A stretch of 64,000 nt of DNA from Betaproteobacteria bacterium HGW-Betaproteobacteria-4. Its GTDB lineage: Bacteria > Pseudomonadota > Gammaproteobacteria > Burkholderiales > Rhodocyclaceae. How positions within the stretch are numbered: the stretch's first letter is position 1; every line of letters starts with the position of its first letter. A model generated the notes under the pieces. It was not told where the DNA came from and ran no database searches. It worked only from the letters and a program-made list of their open reading frames with translations. A program made the position numbers and the translations under genes. The stretch is taken from assembly GCA_002840785.1 (NCBI GenBank), contig PHCH01000005.1, positions 1 to 64,000 on the forward strand, in the 5' to 3' direction. This document shows, in pieces, positions 20,933 to 62,557 of the stretch.

Positions 20933-20977
20933 CTGGGGCGACTGATGGGGCTCGAACCCACGACAACCGGAATCACA
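20933..20977. repeat. attL (remnant of tRNA-His 3' end)
   Basis: CTGGGGCGACTGATGGGGCTCGAACCCACGACAACCGGAATCACA identical to 62480..62524. Confidence 0.95.
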
Positions 20978-21806: not shown

Positions 21807-22574
21807 TCAGAAGTTTCGGATGATCAGTTCATGGCGCTTGGCGCCATTCCCTGAGCCGCCTACTGTGTAGGTAATGTCGACGGTGGTCATGGTTAGGCCG
21901 GCGAAAGCCTGACGCATTTCGGGGATGTCGTTGACAGAAATGATCATGTTTCCCTTGATTGATCTGGCGATCTCTGCCATGCGGTCGTATTGATCGAGGT
22001 TGAAGTCGACGCTGTAGCCTTCTGTGCCCCAGTACGGCGGGTCGCAGTAGAACAGGGTGTGCGGGCGGTCGTAGCGGCGGATGCACTCAGCCCATTCAAG
22101 ATGCTCGATGTAGGTCCGCGACAGTCGAAGATGCGCTGCCGACAAGTCCTCTTCGATGCGCATCAGGTTGATGCGTGGCGGGCTGGTGGTTGCTGTACCG
22201 AATGTGCGGCCGTTGACCTTGCCGCCAAAGCCTAGCTTCTGCAGGTAAAAGAACCGAGCAGCGCGCTGAATGTCCGTCAATGGCTCGACCGGCGTCGCCT
22301 TCAGCCAGTCATACATCTGCCGGCTGGTCAGCGAATACTTGAACTGCCGGATGAACTCCTCCAGATGGTTCTTCACCACCCGGTAAAGCGACACCAGGTC
22401 GCCGTTGATATCGTTCAACACCTCGACATCGACCGGCGCCTTCATGAAAAACAGCGCCGCGGCGCCGCAGAAAGGTTCGACATAGCACGAATGCTCCGGA
22501 AACAACGGCAGCAAATGCTTTGCCAGCCGGCGTTTCCCGCCGATCCAAGGAACAAGGGGGCTTACTTTCGTCAT
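21807..22574 (-). CDS. D12-class (Dam-like) DNA adenine methyltransferase
   Basis: PLVPWIGGKRRLAKHLLPLFPEHSCYVEPFCGAAALFF; FYCDPPYWGTEGY (DPPY). Confidence 0.93.
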   Translation of the reverse strand: MTKVSPLVPWIGGKRRLAKHLLPLFPEHSCYVEPFCGAAALFFMKAPVDVEVLNDINGDLVSLYRVVKNHLEEFIRQFKYSLTSRQMYDWLKATPVEPLTDIQRAARFFYLQKLGFGGKVNGRTFGTATTSPPRINLMRIEEDLSAAHLRLSRTYIEHLEWAECIRRYDRPHTLFYCDPPYWGTEGYSVDFNLDQYDRMAEIARSIKGNMIISVNDIPEMRQAFAGLTMTTVDITYTVGGSGNGAKRHELIIRNF

Positions 22575-22710: not shown

Positions 22711-23751
22711 CTACGCCGCCGCCTTCGCCAGCTCATAAGGCTTGAACTTGATCACCTCATCCCCCAGCCACTCGTTCAGCTCCCGCATGCGGCCCTGGTA
22801 ATAGCCGATCTCATTGGCGTTGAACACCGCCGCCGCCTTCTCGGCATCGCCGAATCCGCCGGTATTGTTCGGCACGATCCCCATCAACTGGGGCGGAACA
22901 CGATGCATCGCCAGCTGGTCATCGCGGGTGATGTTCTTGATGCCCGCGAACTCATCCTTCGCCGCCACCTCGCTCACCGGAATCAGCTGCAGGCCGTCCT
23001 TCTTGCCGTTCGGCGCATACATGAACAGGTTGCGGAAATTCCCCGGCCCCTTCGAATCCCGCAGCGCCTTGCGCAGCGCCTCGACATCAGCGTCCGAATG
23101 CGCCGGATCGGTCATATATAAAATGAACCCGGCGTGCGACCCGTTCTTGTAGTACTTGCGCCGGAACAGCGTCGCCGCCTCGTTCAACCAGGCCGAATGC
23201 AGCGCCGGTATGTACTCCGGCAACCCGTAAATCTCCTGATCGATGTCCGGCTCCATCAAGTGGAACACTTTTCCCTTCTTGAACTTGTGCTCCTCGTTCC
23301 ACTTCGGAACAAAGTAGTAAGTCTCCATATCGATCCCGCGCCGCGTGAACTTCGCCTTCGCCGGCTTCATCCGCATCGGCTCGCGCAACATCGAATCCCG
23401 CCGCTCAAGATAGGCATTCCCGAACACCAGGAACTCATGGGCGAAAATGGAAAAATCCGTCCGCGACAGCAGCGGGTGCGGCTCATAGCACGACACCAGA
23501 ATATTCCGCTTCACGTACATCGCCGACGCGTGATGCACCGCCGACCGGCTCGATCGCGACAGCCCATCCATTGAAATCGGCGGCTCGTACCACTTCCCGT
23601 TATCCGGGCACTCCAGCAGGCTCAGAATGTCGCGCCGGTCCAAAACCCCCTCCGGATCGCCAAACGTAAAAGCCTCAACCCGGCCACCGCCCGCAGTCGA
23701 AGCAACCTCAGCCTTGTCCGAAAACAAAGGCGCCATCAGATCCTTGCTCAT
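22711..23751 (-). CDS. Q: Phage portal protein, P2 gpQ-like
   Basis: GIVPNNTGGFGDAEKAAAVFNANEI; adjacent to terminase in P2 order. Confidence 0.92.
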   Translation of the reverse strand: MSKDLMAPLFSDKAEVASTAGGGRVEAFTFGDPEGVLDRRDILSLLECPDNGKWYEPPISMDGLSRSSRSAVHHASAMYVKRNILVSCYEPHPLLSRTDFSIFAHEFLVFGNAYLERRDSMLREPMRMKPAKAKFTRRGIDMETYYFVPKWNEEHKFKKGKVFHLMEPDIDQEIYGLPEYIPALHSAWLNEAATLFRRKYYKNGSHAGFILYMTDPAHSDADVEALRKALRDSKGPGNFRNLFMYAPNGKKDGLQLIPVSEVAAKDEFAGIKNITRDDQLAMHRVPPQLMGIVPNNTGGFGDAEKAAAVFNANEIGYYQGRMRELNEWLGDEVIKFKPYELAKAAA

Positions 23752-25538
23752 CCGAAAATCTCCATCCGTGATTGATTGGTAGCCGATCGGCCTTCCAGCG
23801 GCTCGTTCGCCAGCGCGTGCATCGTTGCCCACGCCAGATCGGCATGGCTCGTCGCTTCCGACCGCCCTGCCTCAAAAGTCATCTGGCCGCCGCCGGCCGT
23901 CGTTGTCTTCTTGATCGCCATGAAAGCCGCCGCCATGTCCGTCCAGCCAGCGTCGAACTCCATCCGGCCCTTGCCGATCACATCCATCGCCTTCAACACC
24001 AGCCGCGTCTTCACCATCGGGCTGTACTGAAAGCCACGCACCCCCGGGTAAAAGTTCTGCACCAGCTCATAGACCAGGTCGCCGATCCCCGTCCGGTCGA
24101 TGCCGATGAACGTCACGTTGTAAGCCTCGGTCACCCGCTTGATCCGCTCCGCCTGCTCCTCATAGCGCATCCCGGAAAACTGCACCCGGTCAAGAATCCG
24201 GAACTTCCCGCCCTCGACCATCGGTGGCGCAATCACCACCAGCGCCGCATTGTCACCAGAGCGCGACGGGTCATAGCCGACCCACACCTCGCGATACCCC
24301 ATCGGCCGCGCCGCGAACGGCTTGAAGTCATCCCACAGCGTCCAGCTATCCACCATGCAGCGCTGCATCGTCGCCAGGGGGAAAACCGACTCCCCGTCGT
24401 CGATGAACATGCACATCAGCAGGTTCATGAATTCGTCCGGCGAATACTCTCGCCGCAGCTGCTCGATATCGAACAGATTGCATCCACCACCCAGCGCATC
24501 GAGCACCGTCACAATCTGGCGCCACTGGAAGTCCTCGCACAGCCGCCCATTCTTCAAGGCCGCATGCGATACATCGACCTTCACCTTATCGGCCGTCGAC
24601 CTACCCTTGTTGAACAGATCGCCCGTCCAGAACGGGTAAGCCTCATGCGACACAGCCGACGGCGTCGAAAAGTAAGTCAGGCGCCAATGCTTGTGCATCG
24701 CCATCCCGGAAGCCACCTTGCGGAACTCCTGGAATTTCTGAATCCAGAAATACTCGTCCATGTACACATTGCCGTGATACGACTGGGCCGTCCGGCTATT
24801 GGTCCCAAGGAAATACAGCGTCGCCCCGTTCGGCAACACGAAATGCTCGCCCTGCAGCTCAACGTCCGCCGTATCAGCCGCGAACTGCTTGATATACCCC
24901 TTGAACACATGCGCCTGTGCCCGCGACGCGCTCAAGAAAATCTGGTTCCTCCCCGTCTCCAGCGCATCGATAAATCCCTCACGGGCGAAATACCACGTTG
25001 CCCCGATCTGCCGGCTCTTCAACAGATTGCGCACACGATGCTTCAGCCCAGCCCGGTACCAGCACTCCTGATACGGAAACAGCGACTTCATAAACGCAGC
25101 AACCAGCTCCTCCTGCTGCGCCTCGCTGATCGCATTCCGTGCCGGCTGCTTCCTCGTCCCCGCCCGCGTCTTCGCGTTTCGGTTCTCCACCGCCGGATTC
25201 AAATCCGCCTCATTACCGCCACCCGTCGAATACTTCTTAACCCGCGCCAACCGCTCCATCTGCCGGCCAAGCAAGTCGATTTCCTTGTAGTCAGCCCCCT
25301 CCTTCGGCTCCTTCCACAGCAGTTGGATGTAGCGCGCCTCCGTGCTAGATTCAGCCCGCTCGACAGGTGAATACTCATCCCACTTGTCCCGCCGCTTCCA
25401 GCTGTGGATCGTCGTCGCCTTCTCCCCTAGGTGCTCCGAAATGCGGATCACCCGCCAGCCCTGCCAATAAAGGTCACGGGCACGGCGACGCGGATCAAGG
25501 TCCGGAGAAACAGCAGAAGGAGGAAGCGCAGCGTTCAT
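23748..25538 (-). CDS. P: Terminase ATPase subunit, P2 gpP-like
   Basis: DLYWQGWRVIRISEHLGEKATTIHSWKRRDKW; SRQIGATWYFAREGFIDAL; WVGYDPSRSGDNAALVVIAPP; start chosen at MNAALPPSAV. Confidence 0.93.
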   Translation of the reverse strand: MNAALPPSAVSPDLDPRRRARDLYWQGWRVIRISEHLGEKATTIHSWKRRDKWDEYSPVERAESSTEARYIQLLWKEPKEGADYKEIDLLGRQMERLARVKKYSTGGGNEADLNPAVENRNAKTRAGTRKQPARNAISEAQQEELVAAFMKSLFPYQECWYRAGLKHRVRNLLKSRQIGATWYFAREGFIDALETGRNQIFLSASRAQAHVFKGYIKQFAADTADVELQGEHFVLPNGATLYFLGTNSRTAQSYHGNVYMDEYFWIQKFQEFRKVASGMAMHKHWRLTYFSTPSAVSHEAYPFWTGDLFNKGRSTADKVKVDVSHAALKNGRLCEDFQWRQIVTVLDALGGGCNLFDIEQLRREYSPDEFMNLLMCMFIDDGESVFPLATMQRCMVDSWTLWDDFKPFAARPMGYREVWVGYDPSRSGDNAALVVIAPPMVEGGKFRILDRVQFSGMRYEEQAERIKRVTEAYNVTFIGIDRTGIGDLVYELVQNFYPGVRGFQYSPMVKTRLVLKAMDVIGKGRMEFDAGWTDMAAAFMAIKKTTTAGGGQMTFEAGRSEATSHADLAWATMHALANEPLEGRSATNQSRMEIFG

Positions 25539-25552
25539 GGAAGCCGAGGCTA

Positions 25553-25562
25553 CCCGCGCGCG
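25553..25562. promoter_or_regulatory. CCCGCGCGCG motif in divergent P/O leader
   Basis: Exact 10-mer shared with 31521, 35364 and 39891. Confidence 0.6.
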
Positions 25563-25696
25563 AGAAACTCGAAGCGCAACGCCGGAAGTAAGACCAAGCC
25601 CTACACCCACAAGCCTTTGCCCCGCGCGAAAGGCCGCTCCAAACTGGCTCGGCATCGTTTACCACACGACCCGAACAACGTCAGGAGCAAGACACC

Positions 25697-26530
25697 ATGC
25701 CGATTTCCAAGCCTTTCGCCATCGCCACCGAAGGCGCCACCACCGACGGTCGCGTCATCACCGCCGAATGGATCAAACAGATGGCCGAGACCTACGACCC
25801 CAAGGCCTACACCGCCCTCGGCAACCTCGAACACTACATGTCGATGATGCCCGACAGCGTCTTCGGCGCCTACGGCAAGGTCGTCTCCCTGAGCACCCGC
25901 TTCGCTGACATCCTCGGCGAAAAGAAACTGCAGCTCATGTGCGTATTTGATGCCAGCGACGCCCTGGTCGCCCTGCAAAAAGCCGGACAGAAAATGTTCG
26001 CCTCGATGGAAGTCAATCCCAACTTCGCCAAGACCTCCAAGGCCTACCTCGAAGGCCTCGGCTTCACCAACAAGCCCGCCAGCCTCGGCACCGAAATCAT
26101 GCAGTTCGCTGCCCAGGCCAAAGAAAACCCCTTCGCCGGCCGCAAACGCAACCCCGAGAACCTCTTTACCGTCGCCGAAGAAGTCACCCTTGAATGGGAA
26201 ACTGAAAAGTCTTCTGGCGACACCCTGTTCAGCAAGGTCAAGGATTTGCTCGGCATGGGCAAAAAGGAAACCGACGCCAACTTCGCCGACATCAGTAAGG
26301 CAATCGAAGCGATTGCCCAGTCGCAGAAGGAAATCCTCGACCGCTTCTCCGGTGAAGTTCTTGACAAATTCAGCGTCAGCGAGCGCGACATCAAAACCCT
26401 GCGCGAAGAACAAGCCAAGTTCGCCGCCGACTTCGCCGCCCTCAAGGAAACCCTCGGCAAGACCGACGGCGACGACAAGAACCGCGGCACCGCCACCGGC
26501 GGCGACGGCACCATCACCACCGACTGCTAA
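25697..26530 (+). CDS. O: Capsid scaffolding protein, P2 gpO-like
   Basis: FAIATEGATTDGRVITAEWIKQMAETYDPKAYTA; synteny. Confidence 0.93.
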   Translation: MPISKPFAIATEGATTDGRVITAEWIKQMAETYDPKAYTALGNLEHYMSMMPDSVFGAYGKVVSLSTRFADILGEKKLQLMCVFDASDALVALQKAGQKMFASMEVNPNFAKTSKAYLEGLGFTNKPASLGTEIMQFAAQAKENPFAGRKRNPENLFTVAEEVTLEWETEKSSGDTLFSKVKDLLGMGKKETDANFADISKAIEAIAQSQKEILDRFSGEVLDKFSVSERDIKTLREEQAKFAADFAALKETLGKTDGDDKNRGTATGGDGTITTDC

Positions 26531-26566
26531 CCCGCAACACCACACCCCGAACCTACGGAGCACACC

Positions 26567-27583
26567 ATGCGCAAAGAAACCCGCCTAGCCTTCAACGCCT
26601 ACACTGCGGCCATCGCCCAACTCAACGGCGTCCCCTCGGCCTGCGAAAAATTCACCGCTACCCCGAGCGTCCAGCAAACGCTGGAAACCAAGATTCAGGA
26701 ATCCAGCCAGTTCCTGAGCAGCATCAACATGCCACTCGTCACCGACCAAACCGGTGAAAAGATCGGCCTCGGCATCGGCAGCAGCGTCGCCAGCACCACC
26801 GACACCACCTCCGCCGACCGCGTCCCGACCGACCCGTCCTCGCTCGACACCAACGGCTACGCCTGCACCCAGACCAACTACGACACCGCCCTCAAGTACT
26901 CCAAGATCGACGCCTGGGCAAAGTTCCCCGACTTCCAGACCCGCCTGCGCGACGCCATCGTCCGCCGCCAGGCCCTCGACCGCATCACCATCGGCTTCAA
27001 CGGCACCAGCCGCGCCGCCACCTCCAACCGTGGTACCAACCCGCTGCTGCAAGACGTCAATATCGGCTGGCTGCAAAAAATGCGCACCAATGCCGCCGCC
27101 CGCGTCATGACACAGATCCTCGCCACCGGCAAGATCCAGATCGGTGATGCCGTCGCCTTGACGGCCGGCTACAAGAACCTCGACGCCCTCGTCTTCGACA
27201 TGGTCAACAACCTGCTCGACCCGTGGTACCGCGAAGACACCGAACTGGTCGTCATCCTCGGCCGCGACCTCTTCGCCGACAAATACTTCCCGCTGATCAA
27301 CAAGGCCCAGGACAACACGCAAAAGATCGCCGCCGACCTCATCGTCAGCCAGGCCCGCGTCGGTGGCCTGCAAGCCGTCCGCGCGCCATTCTTCCCGGCC
27401 AACAAGCTCATGGTCACCCGCCTCGACAACCTGTCGATCTACGCGCAAGAAGGCGCCCGCCGCCGCGCCATCATCGACAACCCGAAGCGCGACCAGATCG
27501 AGAACTACGAGTCCTCCAACGACGCCTACGTCATCGAAGACTACGGCCTGGCATGCCTGGCTGAAAACATCGAAATCGTCTAA
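26567..27583 (+). CDS. N: Major capsid protein, P2 gpN-like
   Basis: MRKETRLAFNAYTAAIAQLNG...IGLGIGSSVASTTDT; synteny. Confidence 0.93.
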   Translation: MRKETRLAFNAYTAAIAQLNGVPSACEKFTATPSVQQTLETKIQESSQFLSSINMPLVTDQTGEKIGLGIGSSVASTTDTTSADRVPTDPSSLDTNGYACTQTNYDTALKYSKIDAWAKFPDFQTRLRDAIVRRQALDRITIGFNGTSRAATSNRGTNPLLQDVNIGWLQKMRTNAAARVMTQILATGKIQIGDAVALTAGYKNLDALVFDMVNNLLDPWYREDTELVVILGRDLFADKYFPLINKAQDNTQKIAADLIVSQARVGGLQAVRAPFFPANKLMVTRLDNLSIYAQEGARRRAIIDNPKRDQIENYESSNDAYVIEDYGLACLAENIEIV

Positions 27584-39900: not shown

Positions 39901-39941
39901 CGTTCGGCACCATGGGCAGCGTCACCTCAAAGGAGCTGCCC

Positions 39942-41114
39942 ATGCCCACCGAATACCACCACGGCGTCCGCGTCGTCGAACTCTCCGACGGCCGCCGTCC
40001 GATCCGCGTCATTGAAACCGCCGTCATCGGCCTCGTCGCCACCTCGTCCGACGCCGACGCCGCCTTCTTCCCGCTCGATACCCCGGTCCTCGTCACCGAC
40101 ATCCTCGCCGCCATCGGCAAGGCCGGCACCAACGGCACCCTGGCCGCCGCCCTCGATGCCATCGCCGACCACGGCGGCGCCGTGGTCGTCGTCGTCCGCG
40201 TCGCCGCCGGCGTCGATGAAGCCGCCACCAACACCGCCCTCATCGGCACCGTCACCGTCGACGGCCAATACACCGGTATGAAAGCCCTGCTCGCCGCCCA
40301 GGCCAAGCTCGGCGTCAAGCCGCGCATCCTCGGTATCCCCGGCCTCGACACCCTGCCCGTCGCCACCGAACTCGCCCTCATTGCCAAGCAGCTGCGCGCC
40401 TTCGCCTACGTCAGCGTCAACGGCTGCGCCACCAAAGAAGCCGCCGTCGCTTACCGCGACAACTTCGGCGACCGCGAAGTCATGGTCATCTGGCCTGACT
40501 TCATCGGCTGGGACACCGTCACCAGCGCCAATGCCACCTTCCCCGCCGTCGCCCGCGCCCTCGGCCTGCGCGCCAAGCTCGATGAAGAGCAAGGCTGGCA
40601 CAAGACCCTGTCCAACATCGAAGTCAGCGGCGTCACCGGCATCAGCAAGGACGTCTTCTTCGACCTGCAGGACCCGGCCACCGACGCCGGCTACCTCAAC
40701 AGCAACGAGGTGACAACCCTGATCCGTCGCGAAGGCTTCCGTTTCTGGGGCTCGCGCACCTGCAGCGCCGACCCGCTCTTCGCCTTCGAAAACTACACCC
40801 GCACCGCCCAGGTCCTCGCCGACACCATCGCCGAAGCCCACATGTGGGCCGTCGACAAGCCGATGAACCCGACGCTGGTCAAAGACATCATCGAAGGCAT
40901 CAACGCCAAGGGCCGCGAACTCGTCGCCCTCGGCTACCTGATCGGCTTCAACTGCTGGTACGACCCCACGGTCAACGACGAAGTCACCCTCAAGGCCGGA
41001 CAGCTGTATCTCGACTACGACTACACCCCCGTCCCCCCGCTCGAAAACCTCATGTTCCGCCAGCGCATCACCGATCGCTACCTGGCCGACTTCGCCGCCC
41101 GCATCGGCGCCTGA
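39942..41114 (+). CDS. FI: Tail sheath protein, P2 gpFI-like
   Basis: [35 protein letters not shown]...RFWGSRTCS. Confidence 0.95.
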
Positions 41115-42015: not shown

Positions 42016-42143
42016 AAACCTTTATGGCCGACATCGCCGCCGTCTTCCACTGGTCGCTGGAAAGCATGGAGGCCATGTCCCTTGAAGAACTCATCGACTG
42101 GCGTCAGCAAGCCGCCGAACGCAGCCCCGGAGCAGAGCAATGA
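41707..42143 (+). CDS. gpE+E' -1 frameshift product (join 41707..41955, 41955..42143)
   Basis: Slippery A AAT TTT at 41949-41955 in the X XXY YYZ register, 5-nt spacer, hairpin 41961-41987; -1 frame open to TGA 42141-42143. Confidence 0.85.
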
Positions 42144-44350
42144 GCAGCACCCTTGAACTGAAAGTCGTCTTCGCGGCCATCGACAAGTTTCTCAAGCCGG
42201 TCAACGCCATCACCAAGGGCGCCAGCGCGGCGGCCAAAGCCATGCGCGACAACACCGCGCGCATGAAAGAGTTCAACAAGACCGTCGACAACATCGACGC
42301 CTTCAAGAAGCTCGAAAAAGACGCGGCCATCGCCGCCAACACCTTCGCCAAGAACCAGCGCGCCGTCGACGAACTCAAGGCCGCCATCGCCAAGGCCGGC
42401 GTCCCGACCAAGGCCATGGCCAGCGAACTCGCCACCCTGACCAAACGCAGCGAAGAACTCCGCCAGAAACACCAGTCACTGACCCGCGGCGAACAGGCCC
42501 TCTTCGAAAAACTCAAGGCCGCCGGCATCGACACCGGCAAACTCGCCGAACACCGCCGCCAGCTCGCCAGCGCCAGCGCCGACGCCGCCAACCAGAGCCG
42601 CCGCCTGGCCAGTGCCCTCGACGCCGAAAACCAGAAAATGCGCCGCCTGCGCGCCGCCCAGGCCGACATGGCCAAAGCCCGCCAGCGCGCCGGACAACTC
42701 GCCGTCACCGGCGCCGGCATTGCCGCCGCCGGCGCTGCCGTGGGTCTGCCGGCCGGCAAAGCCGCCAAGGACTTCGCCGACTTCGAAACCGCCATGCTCG
42801 GCGTCGCCCGCCAGATGGACGGCGCCCGCGACGACAGCGGCAAAGTCACCCGCACCTACTGGGAAATGGCCGCCGCCATCAAGGCCATGAGCGAACGCCT
42901 GCCCGGTACCGCCAACGACATCGCCAGGATCGTCGAAGGCGGCGCCCGCATGGGCATTCAAGGCAAAGAAAACCTGCTCATCTACGCTGAAACAACCGCC
43001 ATCATGGCCAGCGCCTTCGACCTCCCCGTCGACCAGGTCGGCGAAGACGTCGGCAAGATCAGCCAGCTCTATAAAGTCCCCATCAAGGACATCAAGGCGC
43101 TGGGCGACACCATCAACTGGCTCGACGACAACGCCCTGTCCAAGGGCGGCGACATCATCGACGTCATGAAGCGCATCGCCGGTACCGCCGACATGGCCAA
43201 GATGTCCTTCAAGGAAGCCGCCGCCCTCGGCTCCACCTTCCTGAGCCTCGGCGCCAACAGCGAAGTCGCCGCCAGCGCCAGCAACGCCATGATTCGCGAA
43301 CTCGCCGTCGCCAACATGCAGAGCAAGCGCTTCAAGGGCGGGCTGGCCATGCTCGGCCTCGACAGCAACACCGTCCAGTCCGGCATGGGCAAGAACGCCA
43401 CCGGCACCCTGATCAGCGTCCTCGAAAAGATCAAGGCCCTCTCCGGCGACAAGCAGCTCGAAGCCGCCACCCGCCTTTTCGGCAAGGAATTCGGCGACGA
43501 CGCCGCCAAGCTGGCCAGCAACCTCGGCGAATACCGCCGCCAGCTCGAACTGGTCAACGCCGCCAACGCCAAAGGCTCGATGGACCGCGAGAACCAATCC
43601 CGCGCCGACACCCTCAACCAGCGCATCGAGAACGCCAGGGATTCCTTCACCAACCTCTCCACCGACCTCGGCAAGCACCTCAAACCGGCCATCGCCGACA
43701 CCCTAGAAAAGACGCTCTCCGTCGTCCAGGCCGTGCGCGAATGGTCAGCCGAAAACCCGCGCCTGTCTGGCGGCATCATGACCACCATCAAGTGGCTGGC
43801 CATCGCTTTGACGGCCATTGGCGGCCTCACCGTCGCCGCCGGCGCCATCCTCGTCCCGCTCGCCGCCCTCAAGTTCTCCATGGTCACCCTGGGCCTGTCC
43901 GGTGCCGGCGCCTTCGGCATGATCGCCACCGGCATCCGTATCGTCAGCGCGGCCCTGCTCACCAACCCCATCGGCCTAACCCTGACCGGAATCGCCACCG
44001 CCGCCATCTTGATTTACAAAAACTGGGACTGGCTGAAAGGCAAATTCGCCGCCATCCTCGACAGCCTCATCGCCCGCATCAACAAGTTCAAGGAAAACAT
44101 GCGGATTCTGTCGGGCGGGTTTCTCTTCGGCGACTCCAAAAGCACCCCGACCCGCAGCTCGGTAACCTCGACCCTATCCGCCTCGCCCATCCTCAAGCAG
44201 GCCGCCGCCGGCGCCTCCTACCAGCTCAATTTCCATACCCCACCGGGTACCGACAACCGCGACCTCGCCGCCCAGGTCGGCCGCGAACTCGAACGCATCG
44301 AAGCCCGTAAAGCCGCCCGCCAGCGCGGCGCCCTCAGAGACACGGAGTAA
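42140..44350 (+). CDS. T: Tail tape measure protein, P2 gpT-like
   Basis: Long helical N-terminus, Gly/Ala TM region, TMP signature; position after E/E'. Confidence 0.92.
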   Translation: MSSTLELKVVFAAIDKFLKPVNAITKGASAAAKAMRDNTARMKEFNKTVDNIDAFKKLEKDAAIAANTFAKNQRAVDELKAAIAKAGVPTKAMASELATLTKRSEELRQKHQSLTRGEQALFEKLKAAGIDTGKLAEHRRQLASASADAANQSRRLASALDAENQKMRRLRAAQADMAKARQRAGQLAVTGAGIAAAGAAVGLPAGKAAKDFADFETAMLGVARQMDGARDDSGKVTRTYWEMAAAIKAMSERLPGTANDIARIVEGGARMGIQGKENLLIYAETTAIMASAFDLPVDQVGEDVGKISQLYKVPIKDIKALGDTINWLDDNALSKGGDIIDVMKRIAGTADMAKMSFKEAAALGSTFLSLGANSEVAASASNAMIRELAVANMQSKRFKGGLAMLGLDSNTVQSGMGKNATGTLISVLEKIKALSGDKQLEAATRLFGKEFGDDAAKLASNLGEYRRQLELVNAANAKGSMDRENQSRADTLNQRIENARDSFTNLSTDLGKHLKPAIADTLEKTLSVVQAVREWSAENPRLSGGIMTTIKWLAIALTAIGGLTVAAGAILVPLAALKFSMVTLGLSGAGAFGMIATGIRIVSAALLTNPIGLTLTGIATAAILIYKNWDWLKGKFAAILDSLIARINKFKENMRILSGGFLFGDSKSTPTRSSVTSTLSASPILKQAAAGASYQLNFHTPPGTDNRDLAAQVGRELERIEARKAARQRGALRDTE

Positions 44351-54904: not shown

Positions 54905-55299
54905 CCACAGAAAACATAGCCAAAGCCTTCAACATCGATCCGGCCACCATTGAACTGGTCAACTCCACGGTCAACCGGAAAAACGAGCCAAAAACGGAAA
55001 GCTGCGACTGCCTCAACGACTGCGGCGACGACCCAAGGCTGGACAGCGGCAAGGTCGACTACTGCGACTACCACAAGAAACGCATCGCCATGCTCGCCAT
55101 GATCGAACGGATCCACTGGCTGAAGCCCGCCGACCGCCTTCCCGACGCCGACGAAACCGTCATGATCGTCACCCCGACCCATGACGACCCCGTCTGGCTC
55201 GGCTACTACGACGGCACCACCTGGATAACCGTCGAAGGCCTCCCCCTCGCCGACAACGCGGTCACCGAATGGGCACCCATGCCGCGAGGCCCGCAATGA
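54901..55299 (+). CDS. DUF551-like phage protein carrying an in-frame interspersed repeat
   Basis: IHWLKPADRLPDADETVMIVTPTHDDPVWLGYYDGTTWI; STVNRKNEPKTE from repeat copy 7. Confidence 0.65.
   Translation: MTTENIAKAFNIDPATIELVNSTVNRKNEPKTESCDCLNDCGDDPRLDSGKVDYCDYHKKRIAMLAMIERIHWLKPADRLPDADETVMIVTPTHDDPVWLGYYDGTTWITVEGLPLADNAVTEWAPMPRGPQ
54965..55000 (+). repeat. Interspersed repeat copy 7 (in phage gene)
   Basis: CCACGGTCAACCGGAAAAACGAGCCAAAAACGGAAA. Confidence 0.8.
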
Positions 55300-57077
55300 T
55301 CAACCATCGCGAAATCCGCCACTTCCACATGTGCGGCGCCATCGGTGGCGGCGCCAAGGGCTTCAACCGCGGCCAGGCGCGCGTCGGCAACCTGGTCGCC
55401 AAGTTCCGCTGCCTCGGCTCGGTCGATGTCGACGCCGCAGCCAACCGCGACTTCCAGCGCCTGGTCGGCGTGCCGGCGACGACGCTGGACCTCTTCGACC
55501 GCGACCAGTACCTCGCCTTCCACGGCAAGGAACCGCCGGCCGGCTGGCGCGAGGCCACCCCGGCGGACATCCGCGCCGCCGCCGGCCATGAGTTCCCGCA
55601 CATCGTCTTCACCAGCATGCCGTGCAAGGGCTTCAGCGGCCTGCTCAACGAGACCAAGAGCAAGACCTCGAAATACCAGGCGCTCAACCGCCTGACGCTG
55701 CGCGGCATGTGGCTGATGCTCGAAGCCTTCGCCGAGGATCCGCCCGAGCTGATCCTGTTCGAGAACGTCCCGCGCATCGCCACCCGGGGCCGCCACCTGC
55801 TCGACCAGATCAACAGCCTGCTGACCTCCTACGGCTACGCTGTCGCCGAGACCACCCACGACTGCGGCGAACTCGGCGGACTGGCCGAGAGCCGCAAGCG
55901 CTTCCTGCTCGTCGCCCGCCACATCGCCAAGGTGCCGCCCTTCCTCTACGAACCGGAGAAGAAGCGCCTGCAGGGCGTCGGCACGGTGCTCGGCCGCATG
56001 CCGCTGCCCGGCGACCTCACCGCCGGCCCCATGCACCGCGTGCCCAACCTGCAATGGAAAACGTGGGTCCGCCTCGCCTTCGTCGAAGCCGGCAGCGACT
56101 GGCGCAGCCTGAACAAGCTGGCGGTCGACAACGGCCACCTGCGCGATTTCCTGATCGTGCCGGAATTCAACCGTGGCTACCTCGGCGTCAATCGCTGGGA
56201 CGAGCCGGCCGGCACTATCACCGGAAACACCAGGGCCACCAACGGAAACTTCTCCGTCGCCGATCCGCGCTTCCCGGCCGGCGGCGAATACGGCCAGCTC
56301 GGTGTCCGCGCCTGGGACGAACCGACCGGCGCCATCACCGGCCAGCGCAGCCCCATCCAGGGCGGCTTCTCGGTCGCCGACCCGCGCCACTTCGGCCCGG
56401 CCAAGCACAGCAACGAATTCCGCATCGTGCCCTGGCACCAGAACGCCCAGACCGTCACCGGCGCCCACGGCACCGGCCAGTGCGTCGCCGACCCGCGCCG
56501 CGCCGGCGACGGCTTCGGCAAATACCTGGTCACCCCCTGGGACAGCCCCTCCGGCGCCGTCATTTCCGGCAGCACCACCGGCCAGGGCGCCTACGCCGTC
56601 GCCGACCCGCGCACCGGCCTCGATCGCGCCAAGGGCGACCACTACCTGACCGCCGGCCACTACGGCGTCACCCCGTGGGATAGCCCGAGCGGCGCCGTCT
56701 CGGCCGCCGCCGGACACGACAACGGCCGCTGGTCCGTCGCCGACCCGCGCATGCCGGAACAGACCGACAAACTGGTCGCCCGCATCCGCGCCCTCGACGG
56801 CACCTGGCACCGCCCCTTCACCACCCTCGAACTCGCCGCCCTGCAAAGCCTCGTCGATCCCGAAGAACACCTCGAACTCGACGGCCTCAGCGACAGCGAC
56901 TGGCGCGAACGCATCGGCAACGCCGTCCCGCCCGCAGCTGCCGAAGCAATCGCCGGCGTAATGGGCGTCACGCTGCTGCTGGCGTGGTCAGGCGAGACTT
57001 TCCTGCTCTCGTCCATGCCCATCTGGGTGCGGCCGGTAGCGATGGCACTGAGCGTTGCACAGGGAGGTGCAGCATGA
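55296..57077 (+). CDS. Divergent C5-cytosine DNA methyltransferase with internal repeats
   Basis: FHMCGAIGGGAKGFNRG, TSMPCKGFSGL, LFENVPRI, ESRKRFLLVAR, IGNAVPPAAAEAI; five VADPR-ending units. Confidence 0.85.
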   Translation: MINHREIRHFHMCGAIGGGAKGFNRGQARVGNLVAKFRCLGSVDVDAAANRDFQRLVGVPATTLDLFDRDQYLAFHGKEPPAGWREATPADIRAAAGHEFPHIVFTSMPCKGFSGLLNETKSKTSKYQALNRLTLRGMWLMLEAFAEDPPELILFENVPRIATRGRHLLDQINSLLTSYGYAVAETTHDCGELGGLAESRKRFLLVARHIAKVPPFLYEPEKKRLQGVGTVLGRMPLPGDLTAGPMHRVPNLQWKTWVRLAFVEAGSDWRSLNKLAVDNGHLRDFLIVPEFNRGYLGVNRWDEPAGTITGNTRATNGNFSVADPRFPAGGEYGQLGVRAWDEPTGAITGQRSPIQGGFSVADPRHFGPAKHSNEFRIVPWHQNAQTVTGAHGTGQCVADPRRAGDGFGKYLVTPWDSPSGAVISGSTTGQGAYAVADPRTGLDRAKGDHYLTAGHYGVTPWDSPSGAVSAAAGHDNGRWSVADPRMPEQTDKLVARIRALDGTWHRPFTTLELAALQSLVDPEEHLELDGLSDSDWRERIGNAVPPAAAEAIAGVMGVTLLLAWSGETFLLSSMPIWVRPVAMALSVAQGGAA

Positions 57078-57661
57078 GCGACCTCTTCTATCTGCAGGAC
57101 AGCCGCGGCTTGACTGGCGAAAATATGATGTTTTGGGCTTTCGGCGGTGGATACACCTCTGATATTCGCCAGGCGGAAGTTTTCTCTAAAGAGGCCGCCG
57201 TTCGTCAGCACCAAAGCCGAGAGTCCGACATTCCTTGGCCTGCTGAGTACATCAAAGGCCGCTTTTACACGCCCGTTGATATGCAGCACTTACGGCACGC
57301 CGATGGCAACAGCAGGGATGTGGCTTTTTACGAACAAGTTCCAGGTCGCTGGATCGGCAACGACTGTCTGTGGGTTTATGGCAGCACGGAAACAACTGAT
57401 CTACGGCTGGCCAGCGTGTTCGCCAGTCTGCAGCCGGGGTGCGTGATGTGGCCTGTTGAAGAAATTCAGAAGCTGGCGAGGCCGGCAGTGCGGGCTAGTG
57501 ACGTTTCGATAAAGGAAGCGCTGGATGGATCTGGAATCGTTATCAACAAACCCAAGCGCACCAAACGCGAAGTGTTCAACTGCCACCAGTGCGGACGCTT
57601 CATAAGCGAGGACCAGCGTTTCTTTGACTGCCCGAACTGCGGCGCGGAGAACCGGCCATGA
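57074..57661 (+). CDS. Hypothetical phage protein with C-terminal zinc ribbon
   Basis: FNCHQCGRFISEDQRFFDCPNCGAE. Confidence 0.6.
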   Translation: MSDLFYLQDSRGLTGENMMFWAFGGGYTSDIRQAEVFSKEAAVRQHQSRESDIPWPAEYIKGRFYTPVDMQHLRHADGNSRDVAFYEQVPGRWIGNDCLWVYGSTETTDLRLASVFASLQPGCVMWPVEEIQKLARPAVRASDVSIKEALDGSGIVINKPKRTKREVFNCHQCGRFISEDQRFFDCPNCGAENRP

Positions 57662-58041
57662 TCGCCCTATCCATCCGCCAGCCCTGGGCCTGGCTCATCC
57701 TAAACGCCGGCAAGGACATCGAAAACCGCGACTGGAAAACCCCCTACCGCGGCCCCTGCCTGATCCACGCCTCGAAGTCGGCCACCAAGCAGGACTACCA
57801 GGACGCCATCGACTTCATTAACTGCCGCCTTGACCACCCGATTATCGAAGTCCCGCCCATCGACCAGTTCGACCGCGGCGGCATCGTCGGCATGGTCGAC
57901 ATCGTCGGCTGCACCGACACCTCCGACTCCCCCTGGTTCGTCGGCGACTACGGCTTCGTCCTGCGCAACCCGAAACCCTTGCCCTTCACCCCCTACAAAG
58001 GCCGCCTCGGCTTCTTCAACGTCCCGGAGATCAAACCATGA
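57658..58041 (+). CDS. ASCH-domain protein
   Basis: ALSIRQPWAWLILNAGKDIENRDWKTPYRGPCLIHASK. Confidence 0.85.
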   Translation: MIALSIRQPWAWLILNAGKDIENRDWKTPYRGPCLIHASKSATKQDYQDAIDFINCRLDHPIIEVPPIDQFDRGGIVGMVDIVGCTDTSDSPWFVGDYGFVLRNPKPLPFTPYKGRLGFFNVPEIKP

Positions 58042-58385
58042 GCCAAGCAATCTACCCGGCCACCCTGGCCGCCATGACCGCCAAGCGCGCCGGCGAAAAA
58101 TACCGCCCCAGCAACGGCACCGAAGGCGACCTCTTCTTCGCCGCTTGGTGCGGCAAATGCCAGCGCGACAAAGCCATGCGCGAAGGCTGCGCCATCGAAG
58201 AGTGCGACGACAGCGAACGATGCGACCTCATCGCCTCCACCATGATGTTCGACATCGACGAACCGGGCTACCCGACCGAATGGCAATACGACAAAACCGG
58301 CCAGCCCAGCTGCACCGCCTACATCCCCGCCGGCGACCTGCTCCCACCGCAACGCTGCGAGCACACCCAGGACCTGTTCGCATGA
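58038..58385 (+). CDS. Hypothetical phage protein, Cys-rich
   Basis: AAWCGKCQRDKAMREGCAIEECDDSERCDL; last gene before integron. Confidence 0.6.
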   Translation: MSQAIYPATLAAMTAKRAGEKYRPSNGTEGDLFFAAWCGKCQRDKAMREGCAIEECDDSERCDLIASTMMFDIDEPGYPTEWQYDKTGQPSCTAYIPAGDLLPPQRCEHTQDLFA

Positions 58386-58488: not shown

Positions 58489-58803
58489 ATGGAACACATG
58501 GAAATAGTGGATATGAGCACCGAAGAGGGACGCGCAACGGTTGAGGAATACGATCGCGACAAGGCCGAGACGGTGCGCTTTGGGCAGCAGCTTTTCGCAA
58601 AGATCAAGCGCAGCAGCAAGTATTACAACCAGAACGAATGGGCGGAGGCCGAACCGAAACGCTGGGGAGGATTTCCGTTCAAGGTGCGGGTCGATCCGAC
58701 CTACGGCGAATACTGCATTCAGGGCGGCCCCGGCGGGCAATACCGGCTGGCCGACGTGAATCTCTTCGTTGTCGAGGGCGGCCGCGAGCTGCGGATTTCG
58801 TGA
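58489..58803 (+). CDS. Cassette-borne hypothetical protein
   Basis: AAGGAGAACGAA Shine-Dalgarno then ATG; 104 aa, coding-like. Confidence 0.7.
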   Translation: MEHMEIVDMSTEEGRATVEEYDRDKAETVRFGQQLFAKIKRSSKYYNQNEWAEAEPKRWGGFPFKVRVDPTYGEYCIQGGPGGQYRLADVNLFVVEGGRELRIS

Positions 58804-58879: not shown

Positions 58880-59365
58880 ATGCTGATACCACTTGTGACC
58901 TTCGAGGAAATTGACCTGGCGGCGGCCAATGAGTGCTTGGCCGCCTGGGGCCACAAGATGGGGCCGCTTGAGCGCGGGAACAAGGCCGGCGTTCACTACG
59001 CACTGTGCCACGACGGGCGGCCGGTGGCGGTGGCGATGACCTCGACGCTGATTCGTGAGCGGGTAGGCGGTGGATTGGGACACCTGACGCGCGAGAATGC
59101 CTGCGAGCTTTCGAGGCTTTGCGCCGAGCGCGCCGGACTCTGCCGGGTTGCACTGCGGCTATGGCGGGAGTTCGTTTTCCCGGCGACGGGTTACGAGTAT
59201 GCGATCAGCTACCAAGATGCGGACATTCACAACGGGAACACCTACCGCTTCGACGGCTGGACGCGAGAGGCGTTTTCTCGCAGCGGAACCGACAGCCGGA
59301 GTGGCCGCCGGGGAAGAAACAAATGGATATGGGTATGGCGCAACCCAAAGGCGCCCAACGCTTAG
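58880..59365 (+). CDS. Cassette-borne Mom-like (GNAT-fold DNA modification) protein
   Basis: CHDGRPVAVAMTS...ELSRLCAERAGLCRVALRLWREFVFPATGYEYAISYQDADIHNGNTYRFDGWTREAFSRSG. Confidence 0.55.
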   Translation: MLIPLVTFEEIDLAAANECLAAWGHKMGPLERGNKAGVHYALCHDGRPVAVAMTSTLIRERVGGGLGHLTRENACELSRLCAERAGLCRVALRLWREFVFPATGYEYAISYQDADIHNGNTYRFDGWTREAFSRSGTDSRSGRRGRNKWIWVWRNPKAPNA

Positions 59366-59435
59366 GTGATGGGCCGAGGCAACGCCAGTTGCCGAAGGTC
59401 CAGCGCGAAGCGCGACATCGACCGGAGTGTTAGAA
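59353..59435 (-). repeat. attC site C
   Basis: Minus: TTCTAACACTCCGGTCGATGTCGCGC...CATCACCTAAGCGTTGGGC; arms GGTCGATG/CATCACC with extra C. Confidence 0.8.
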
Positions 59436-59467: not shown

Positions 59468-59698
59468 ATGGGGCAAGCAAAACAACGAGGAACGTTCTTG
59501 CAGCGCAAGGTCGAAGGTGAGGCAAGACGTATTGCCGAAGAACTGCGCCGCCGGGAAGAGGAAGCGGCGCGCGAGGCGGCATTGACGCCAGCACAAAAAG
59601 AAGCGCGCCGAAAACTGCAAATGGCGATTGGGTTTGTGACGGCCATTACACCGCCAGAAGTGCTGGCGGCTGCGAAATTCGGAAGGGCATTGTTTTGA
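59468..59698 (+). CDS. Cassette-borne small charged helical protein
   Basis: MGQAKQRGTFLQRKVEGEARRIAEELRRREEEAARE with AAGAGG ribosome-binding site. Confidence 0.65.
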   Translation: MGQAKQRGTFLQRKVEGEARRIAEELRRREEEAAREAALTPAQKEARRKLQMAIGFVTAITPPEVLAAAKFGRALF

Positions 59699-59699
59699 C

Positions 59700-59786
59700 T
59701 TCTAACTTGAATTCAACGACACCCGATGTCGCGCCACCCGGCCGCGATGTCGCTTAAGACAAACCGAATCTCCGGAGGACAGCACC
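59700..59786 (-). other. attI candidate
   Basis: Between intI start and first cassette; minus end TTGAATTCAAGTTAGAA; direct repeats GATGTCGC at 59725 and 59746. Confidence 0.55.
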
Positions 59787-60812
59787 ATGCCTGCCGTTAT
59801 TGAAAAAAACGCGACACACGAAACCGCCAAACGCGACATCGTTCCGGTGGCTCAACAGCCCCGCCTGCTCGACCAGGTTCGGGCCCGCATCTGCGTCCTG
59901 CACTACAGCCGGTCGACCGAGAAAACCTACATCCACTGGATTCTCGACTTCATCCGCTTTAGTGACCGGCGCCACCCGAAAGATATGGGCGCGCAGGAAG
60001 TTGAAGCCTACCTGTCGCACCTGGCTACCGACCGCGATGTCGCTGGCGGAACGCAGAACCAGGCCATGCATGCCATCCTGTTTCTCTACAAGCAGGTGCT
60101 CGGCATTGACCTACCCTGGCTGGACGGCGTCACACGAGCCAAGGAAAGCAAGCGCATTCCGACCGTCCTGACGCAGTCTGAGACACGGGCGCTACTCGAT
60201 CAGACCAGCGGACTGCCCGGACTAGTCATCCGCCTACTCTACGGTACCGGCATGCGCCTGATGGAAGGCCTGCGCCTGCGAGTCAAGGACATCGATTTTC
60301 ACGGCCGTGCTATCACCGTCCGTGCGGGCAAAGGAGACAAGGATCGCATCGTCCCGCTGCCGGAATGCCTGATCGAACCGCTTAAGGCCAGGCTCGACGA
60401 GCGGCGAAAGATGCATGACGTCGATCTCGCCAAAGGCATGGCCGACGTCGAACTGCCGCACGCTCTTGAACGGAAATACCGCAACGCCGGCAAGGAGTTC
60501 GGCTGGCAATACATCTTCGCCGCTGCCGACTACTCGACCGACCCGCGCACCGGCGTCATCCGCCGCCACCACCTGCACGAAAAGACTATCCAGCGCCACG
60601 TCAAGGAAGCCGCCCGGCGCGCCGGCATCCTGAAACCGACACACCCGCACACCCTACGCCACAGCTTCGCCACCCACCTGCTCGAATCCGGTGCCGACAT
60701 CCGCACCGTGCAGGAACTGCTGGGCCACGCCGACGTCTCGACAACGATGATCTACACCCATGTTCTCAACCGCGGCGGCCGCGGCGTCATCAGCCCGCTG
60801 GATAGGATCTGA
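59787..60812 (+). CDS. intI: Integron integrase (IntI-family tyrosine recombinase)
   Basis: [13 protein letters not shown]-like N-terminus; IntI-specific insert [63 protein letters not shown] catalytic region [39 protein letters not shown]. Confidence 0.95.
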
Positions 60813-61125: not shown

Positions 61126-61504
61126 TTTCCTGACAACCGCCGAGATTGCGGACCTGACGGATCGCCAGTTGCCGAGCAAGCAGATTGCCTGGCTGGCCGA
61201 AAACCGCTGGAAGTTCGCCGTCTCGGCCGCCGGCAGACCGAAGGTGGCGCGGTCATTCTATGATTTCATGCTCGGGACAGCGACGAAAGAACCCGACGAA
61301 CAACAAGAACCTGATTTCTCTGGCTGGGTGAACAAGCATGGTGGGGCGACGGAAAAGCAATCTGGAACTCGGCATGAGCCGGCTCTACGTCTACGAGGGA
61401 AAACGGACGACGACCTATTACACAATCGACCGCCACAACAAATACATCAACCTCGGCAAGGACCTTCGCTCAGCCAAAAAACAGCTGCTCGAGCTGGAAG
61501 GTGA
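61118..61504 (+). CDS. DUF4224-type protein, overlaps integrase
   Basis: SSFLTTAEIADLTDRQLPSKQIAWLAENRWKFAVSAAGRPKVARSFYDFMLG. Confidence 0.7.
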   Translation: MSSFLTTAEIADLTDRQLPSKQIAWLAENRWKFAVSAAGRPKVARSFYDFMLGTATKEPDEQQEPDFSGWVNKHGGATEKQSGTRHEPALRLRGKTDDDLLHNRPPQQIHQPRQGPSLSQKTAARAGR

Positions 61505-62366
61505 AGCGCCAGAACCCGGTACCATCGCCGACTACCTGGACGACCTGATCAAGGCGCGCTGGAAGCTGGTCGCGAAAAAGAAACTGGCCACTCGCACCGT
61601 CGAAACGAACGAATCGGAGGCAGAGAAGCTAAAAGACTTCTTCGGCAATATGAAGCCGGAGGCCGTCAAGCCATCCCACGTCTGGCTCTACCTGCACAAA
61701 TACCGCGGAGCCGAAAGCCCTGTCCGCGCCAACCGCGAAATTGCCCTTTTATCGACCCTGTTCAACGGCCTGCTCGGCGCCGGTATCGTCGACAGAAACC
61801 CGTGCGTCGGCGTCGAGCGAAACACCGAGACCCCGCGCGACAGACTGGTCAGCGATATAGAGTTCAAATCATTCCTGAAATACTGCTGGCGCCACGGCGA
61901 CGCCGGCCGCCGCATCGCCCTGGCCGGCTACATCGCCTACATCACCGGCAAGGCCCAGGGCCAAATCCTGAGACTCAACCGGGGCCAGCTAACCAAGGAC
62001 GGAATCGCGTTCGCCAAACGCAAGCGCGGCGCCGAAACGCTAGTCCTCTGGACCCCGCTACTGCGCAAGCTGATCAAGGCCTCGATAGACATGCCATGCA
62101 CCATCGATCCGCTCTACGTCATTCACAGCCAGGCCGGCACACCCTACACGACATCGGGATTCAAGGCCCTGTGGCATCGCCGCATGGGCGAATGGTGCGC
62201 CCTCGGCCACGAACGCTTCACCTTCCACGACCTTCGCGCCAAAGCCGTCACCGACATGACCGAGCAGGGCCGAAAAGCCAGCGACCTAACCGGCCACCGC
62301 CAGGAATCAACCATCGCCAGCGTCTACGACCGCCGCCGAGTCCGAAAATCCCACGCCGTGAAGTAA
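61338..62366 (+). CDS. int: Phage integrase (tyrosine recombinase)
   Basis: FTFHDLRAKAVTDMTEQGRKASDLTGHRQESTIASVYDRRRV; adjacent to attR/tRNA-His. Confidence 0.93.
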   Translation: MVGRRKSNLELGMSRLYVYEGKRTTTYYTIDRHNKYINLGKDLRSAKKQLLELEGEAPEPGTIADYLDDLIKARWKLVAKKKLATRTVETNESEAEKLKDFFGNMKPEAVKPSHVWLYLHKYRGAESPVRANREIALLSTLFNGLLGAGIVDRNPCVGVERNTETPRDRLVSDIEFKSFLKYCWRHGDAGRRIALAGYIAYITGKAQGQILRLNRGQLTKDGIAFAKRKRGAETLVLWTPLLRKLIKASIDMPCTIDPLYVIHSQAGTPYTTSGFKALWHRRMGEWCALGHERFTFHDLRAKAVTDMTEQGRKASDLTGHRQESTIASVYDRRRVRKSHAVK

Positions 62367-62479: not shown

Positions 62480-62524
62480 CTGGGGCGACTGATGGGGCTC
62501 GAACCCACGACAACCGGAATCACA
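62480..62524. repeat. attR
   Basis: 45 bp identical to attL 20933..20977. Confidence 0.95.
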
Positions 62525-62557
62525 ATCCGGGACTCTACCAACTGAGCTACAGCCGCC
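62481..62557 (-). tRNA. tRNA-His (GTG)
   Basis: GGCGGCTGTAGCTCAGTTGGTAGAGTCCCGGATTGTGATTCCGGTTGTCGTGGGTTCGAGCCCCATCAGTCGCCCCA; G-1:C73 pair; encoded CCA. Confidence 0.97.

Follow-up and report, generated by a model that had tools for sequence, protein, structure and literature searches.

Integrons are bacterial devices known for spreading resistance genes. The base modification carried out by Mom in phage Mu is made on adenine. That phages have Mom families, and that these act against restriction, is already established (PMC7824862; PMC6483171), and the Mom domains of jumbo phages are fused to nuclease domains, with a protective role proposed (PMC7824862). Integrons in phages have also been described. 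Qi et al. 2023 (PMC9892861) reported three complete integrons (one a chromosomal piece from Vibrio, one a class 1 mosaic within P1 and one in a Shewanella prophage) together with 17 CALINs, counted five methyltransferase cassettes, and proposed an anti-host-defence role. In the literature consulted, mostly outside subscription journals, we did not find a phage IntI clade, reversed phage cassettes or Mom cassettes described.

The window analyzed here is a 64-kb stretch of DNA that contains a prophage, an integron and a Mom-like gene. As in the integrons and CALINs that Qi et al. 2023 describe in phages, an integrase, attC sites and cassettes lie in a phage genome, and DNA methyltransferases are among the cargo of the group; the lineage to which the window belongs differs in its separate phage IntI clade, its attC-reversed cassettes, its Mom cargo and its observed turnover. 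The locus shares a TIGR02249 IntI, the attC structure and an upstream array with the sedentary chromosomal integrons of Betaproteobacteria, and the host's own chromosomal integron carries a related Mom cassette. Those integrons, however, have IntI of bacterial branches, ORFs mostly along attC polarity and no adjoining phage integrase. The product of the Mom-like gene compares with Mu Mom (PF25680, PHROG 1384, structure 8bv8) in being encoded by a phage, in its predicted GNAT fold, in about 130 apparently homologous residues and in shared E, R, S, D, G and Y positions. It differs in length (161 aa and no C-terminal extension, against 231 aa), in having Arg for the catalytic Ser, in the absence of a visible Com partner gene and in being cassette-borne. 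The jumbo-phage proteins are likewise Mom family members in phages, but the window protein is a single domain on a mobile cassette.

Taken together, the explanation that we favor, with confidence slightly above even, is a phage integron that trades Mom-superfamily DNA-modifying cassettes against restriction. The Mom-like protein would be a divergent Mom-superfamily acyl-type transferase acting on a DNA base; modification before packaging would let the phage resist restriction enzymes; IntI would swap anti-restriction cassettes among related phages and the host chromosomal integron; and selection would retain those cassettes whose gene lies along the direction of phage transcription. If this is correct, a phage lineage that swaps DNA-modification cassettes with its own integrase would explain fast changes of restriction resistance in temperate phages, integrons would also serve phages in the arms race, and a route of cassette traffic would run between phages and bacterial chromosomes.

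The prophage is P2-like, measures 41.5 kb and is flanked by a 45-bp tRNA-His repeat. Its integron lies at the 3′ end of the rightward early operon, beside the phage integrase, and the features of the window are as follows.

20933..20977, no strand: attL, left prophage end; 45-bp direct repeat, 3′ part of tRNA-His
22711..27583, no strand: P2-type portal, terminase large subunit and major head protein
39912-41114: prophage tail sheath
42140-44350: prophage tape measure
58038..58385, plus: ORF of 115 aa upstream of attC site 1; 48% homologue inside a cassette of phage contig L063
58396..58462, minus (conventional polarity): attC site 1, from covariance models and polarity controls
58489..58803, plus: cassette ORF of 104 aa, phrog_18597; 61% identical to cassette ORFs of L055 and L056 (phage contigs)
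58805..58866, minus: attC site 2, upstream flank of the Mom-like gene, from covariance models and a canonical stem fold
58880..59365, plus: cassette gene for the Mom-like GNAT protein, 161 aa, ATG start
59353..59435, minus: attC site 3, downstream flank of the Mom-like gene, from covariance models
59468..59698, plus: attI-proximal cassette ORF of about 76 aa, no assigned function
59704..59732, minus: predicted attI, AAC|TTGAATTCAACGACACCCGATGTCGC, a 29-bp conserved stretch
59787..60812, plus: intI, integron integrase, 341 aa, intact; TIGR02249 at 465 bits (cut-off 265), positions 1-315
61338..62366, plus: phage tyrosine integrase adjoining intI
62480..62524, no strand: attR, right prophage end; 45-bp direct repeat inside tRNA-His 62481-62556 (minus)

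Two more DNA methyltransferase genes lie in the prophage outside the integron, at 21807-22574 (minus; phrog_56) and 55269-57077 (plus; phrog_116/32684). An ASCH-domain protein (phrog_3193) is encoded at 57658-58041, in the same operon and just 5′ of the array.

Simple attC motif scans were too loose and were replaced by covariance models. Because the training set of one model (R1) included sites of the window, a second model (R2), built only from bacterial sites (class 1 plasmid integrons and the chromosomal integrons of relatives), was used as the test. R2 recovered the three attC sites at E = 5e-10, 5e-9 and 8e-7, and no others in the 64 kb. Site 2 folds on the minus strand into a canonical stem with one extrahelical base, and the Mom-like gene takes its final codons and stop from site 3. 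The predicted attI is kept 5′ of intI in most phage relatives, where the bases to the left of the conserved stretch vary with the cassette. The initial annotation had described the gene as an integron cassette, and it is indeed placed between two of the three attC sites, near attI and an intact intI. By sequence, the array of the prophage includes the Mom-like gene as a cassette, and the integron looks complete (intI, attI and three attC), with integrase activity and recombination predicted.

The orientation of the cassettes is unusual, since genes along attC polarity are customary in integrons, although they do not strictly define them. Plasmid integrons of class 1 and class 3 that carry known resistance ORFs served as controls: in them the attC model matches the intI strand and the cassette genes run opposite to it. 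In the window the attC model also matches the intI strand, yet the cassette genes run along intI, so that both full cassettes, like most in phage relatives, are reversed with respect to attC polarity. The Mom-like gene therefore runs against the polarity that attC conventionally sets and shares the direction of the phage operon on its left. An inverted integrase as the cause was considered and dropped, since the controls show that the relation of intI to attC is normal and that the ORFs are reversed. Codon-scored cassette ORFs in phage arrays are reversed in 63 cases and normal in 13 (6 of the 13 in the divergent isolate contig L087), against 13 reversed and 37 normal in bacterial arrays (Fisher 2e-10), in counts that rely on codon scores for short ORFs of GC-rich DNA and exclude weak calls (19 phage, 33 bacterial). 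All checked phage cassette genes with family matches, namely Mom, methyltransferases and PAPS reductases, lie along intI. Since the cassette genes face intI, the phage operon rather than the usual integron promoter would read them, which makes a simple, testable prediction about expression.

Homology of the cassette protein to Mom is supported by profile searches. The PHROG family annotated as "Mom-like DNA modification protein" (phrog_1384) was matched by the window protein at E = 1.7e-6 and by all 24 members of its subfamily (best E 1.1e-9); Mu Mom itself (from AF083977) falls into the same PHROG at 7e-84. The Pfam Mom model PF25680 did not detect the window protein, and searches with it against Pfam, NCBIfam and PDB sequences gave no usable match. 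Aligning the subfamily to the lone Mu Mom sequence with hhalign also returned nothing, and a Mom alignment was therefore needed; profile-profile comparison with 13 phage Moms then gave E = 5.5e-8 (probability 94.8) over 131 columns. Mom is thus the only GNAT family to which sequence profiles tie the protein.

The quoted motifs of the initial annotation are present in the 161-aa translation, and its claim of a GNAT-like layout is borne out by an AlphaFold2 model (pLDDT 85, pTM 0.79) in which strands and helices follow the GNAT order. The comparison with the Mom structure that it had suggested placed Mu Mom (8bv8) first in VIA-align, at Z 12.9 over 150 residues and 2.9 A, with other GNATs at 12.6 and below; Foldseek of the same model listed GNATs, with 8bv8 at rank 7 (E = 7.5e-5). 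Because GNAT folds are so alike, a structural match alone cannot separate Mom from other GNATs, and the predicted fold agrees with Mom homology without being decisive. The proposed resemblance to Mom accordingly holds as homology, in family match, profile-profile alignment and fold; a plain identification as Mom does not, as conservation of the active site is mixed.

Six positions agree: E76, R79, S110, D113, G119 and Y122 correspond to Mom E98, R101, S136, D139, G146 and Y149, and the SYxD-G-Y motif conserved in the subfamily is common to Mom. Conservation of the Mom active site fails at the catalytic serine. The solved structure 8bv8 is titled "inactive mutant S124A", the mutated residue being S114 in the numbering of the 231-aa Mu Mom by sequence comparison. 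Its column holds Arg93 in 24 of 24 subfamily members and Ser in all nine other compared Moms with a residue there. The His-Tyr pair that follows the first helix of Mom (H48, Y49) is at best partly matched, with the invariant H25 aligned to Y49, one residue off H48. Given the Arg throughout the subfamily, the protein is best placed as a divergent branch of the Mom superfamily, whose chemistry may differ from that of Mom.

The same substitution is the main argument for a different target. A Mom-superfamily GNAT that acylates a host protein, a tRNA or a small molecule, in host takeover or superinfection control, would accommodate both the invariant Arg in place of the catalytic Ser and the nearly equal scores of GNAT folds with many functions. 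We regard this as a tentative alternative, clearly the less probable one, in view of the exclusive profile link to Mom, the shared SYxD-G-Y motif and the DNA methyltransferase genes that recur as company. Modification of DNA by the Mom-like protein is judged likely.

The Mom-like gene has relatives in 33 viral contigs (50-100% identity) and on one plasmid (52%), and the ORF at 58880-59365 is therefore a real gene; tblastn against cultured phages found no match. One relative, in L002, is an identical copy, as the contig is the same prophage in IMG/VR, perhaps from the same sample; another, in a 62-kb virus (L003), is 83-85% identical. The window member is the only one of the subfamily in a clear cassette, since 30 of the 32 other viral loci show no attC and two have weak sites. 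These attC-like sites, perhaps cassette remnants, stand directly 3′ of subfamily members in L004 (5447-5546) and L011 (2598-2658), at E of about 2e-4 and 1e-3. Some non-cassette relatives adjoin DNA methyltransferases (L004, L025) or the terminase small subunit (L003). At L003 3859-5510 the 85% relative overlaps the end of the terminase small-subunit gene, an arrangement that would fit modification shortly before packaging.

That the gene is a degenerate or non-expressed cassette, captured by chance and drifting, seems improbable. Many cassettes of integrons are regarded as silent, the start codon has no obvious strong ribosome-binding site 5′ of it, and the codon score is modest (17.4); against this, the frame is intact, the subfamily alignment keeps 40 invariant columns among 24 members and 42 among 23, and the copy in the 62-kb phage has stayed closely similar.

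The favored reading, in which Mom-type cassettes are traded by a phage integron, draws further on other arrays. Mom-family genes occur in arrays or at the attI end in L070, L060, L071 and L056, the L070 gene matching at 1.3e-46 in PHROG and 1.1e-39 with Pfam Mom; Mom profiles found no Mom gene outside the arrays at these loci. Searches with these genes led to further viral contigs with Mom genes beside attC in the same reversed sense (L235, L315, L316, L338 and others); of 14 such contigs, 8 carry terminase and none an IntI above the family cut-off. Other array cargo comprises C5, Dam, MT-A70 and N6/N4 methyltransferases. The initial annotation had offered a Mom cargo as a selective reason for a prophage integron, and this idea gains from the recurrence of other, clearer Mom genes as cassettes.

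Turnover can be followed between L055 and L056, which are 99.9% identical over the 4 kb shared from intI onward. A 757-bp unit bearing a Mom gene is present in L056 and absent from L055, and its removal at two crossover points restores the L055 site with 498 of 500 bases identical. Two nearly identical phages thus differ, to judge from the alignment, by the exact gain or loss of a 757-bp Mom cassette. The comparisons of L053 with L054 and of L080 with L083 reveal differences of whole array stretches. Mom-family cassettes in this IntI clade are evidently gained and lost at exact attC crossover points, and their repeated gain and loss suggests that viruses trade anti-defence genes through integrons. 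Both base differences across the empty site (L055 4327-4395, L056 4381-4449) belong to one paired change in the attC stem, from T/A to A/T, which hints at selection on the stem.

Exchange extends to the host. Its chromosomal integron (contig C73; L139 8046-8576, minus) holds an attC-bounded, reversed Mom cassette near intI, with a PHROG match of 1.8e-32 and 90.9% identity over 470 bp to the cassette of phage L315; phages and chromosome therefore share cassettes. We consider it fairly probable that a dedicated phage-integron lineage serves as a platform for anti-restriction exchange, with inverted cassettes read from the phage operon, Mom as recurrent cargo and a cassette pool shared with the host.

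The window IntI retrieved 61 loci in viral contigs. A model trained on 29 sites, some of them from these loci, places attC at E 0.01 or better in 37 of the 61, nearly all 5′ of intI. Several contigs have in common the order of early operon, cassettes, intI and phage integrase, and their structural genes differ from those of the P2-like window phage. IMG/VR contigs may hold misassigned pieces, though terminase, tail or lysis genes are present on several of the contigs. Among cultured phages, only 9 of 50,697 records contain a comparable IntI match, and none reaches 60% identity. Phylogenetically, 41 phage IntI form one clade without any sampled bacterial IntI (SH-aLRT 100), and when 24 matches from 84,980 species genomes were added, only two sequences, both from MAGs, fell inside it (SH-aLRT 96). 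Because sampling began from the window IntI, the clade is shown only to be phage-rich, and phage-only status is not proven.

A reading of the integron as a chance passenger, in which imprecise prophage events trapped part of the host chromosomal integron and it has no phage role, is very improbable: such capture is reported for Vibrio phages (PMC9892861) and contig C73 carries a second integron of the host, but the phage IntI shares only 59% identity with that of the host and sits in the separate phage clade, and the layout recurs across phage types with a conserved attI and cassette turnover. Descent as a fragment of the host's own integron was rejected on the same IntI identity and tree. In the closest relative of the window integron (L051 5312-9038, IntI 90% identical), attC sites occur on both sides of intI, which thus lies inside the array, and this phage ends at a different tRNA from the window prophage.
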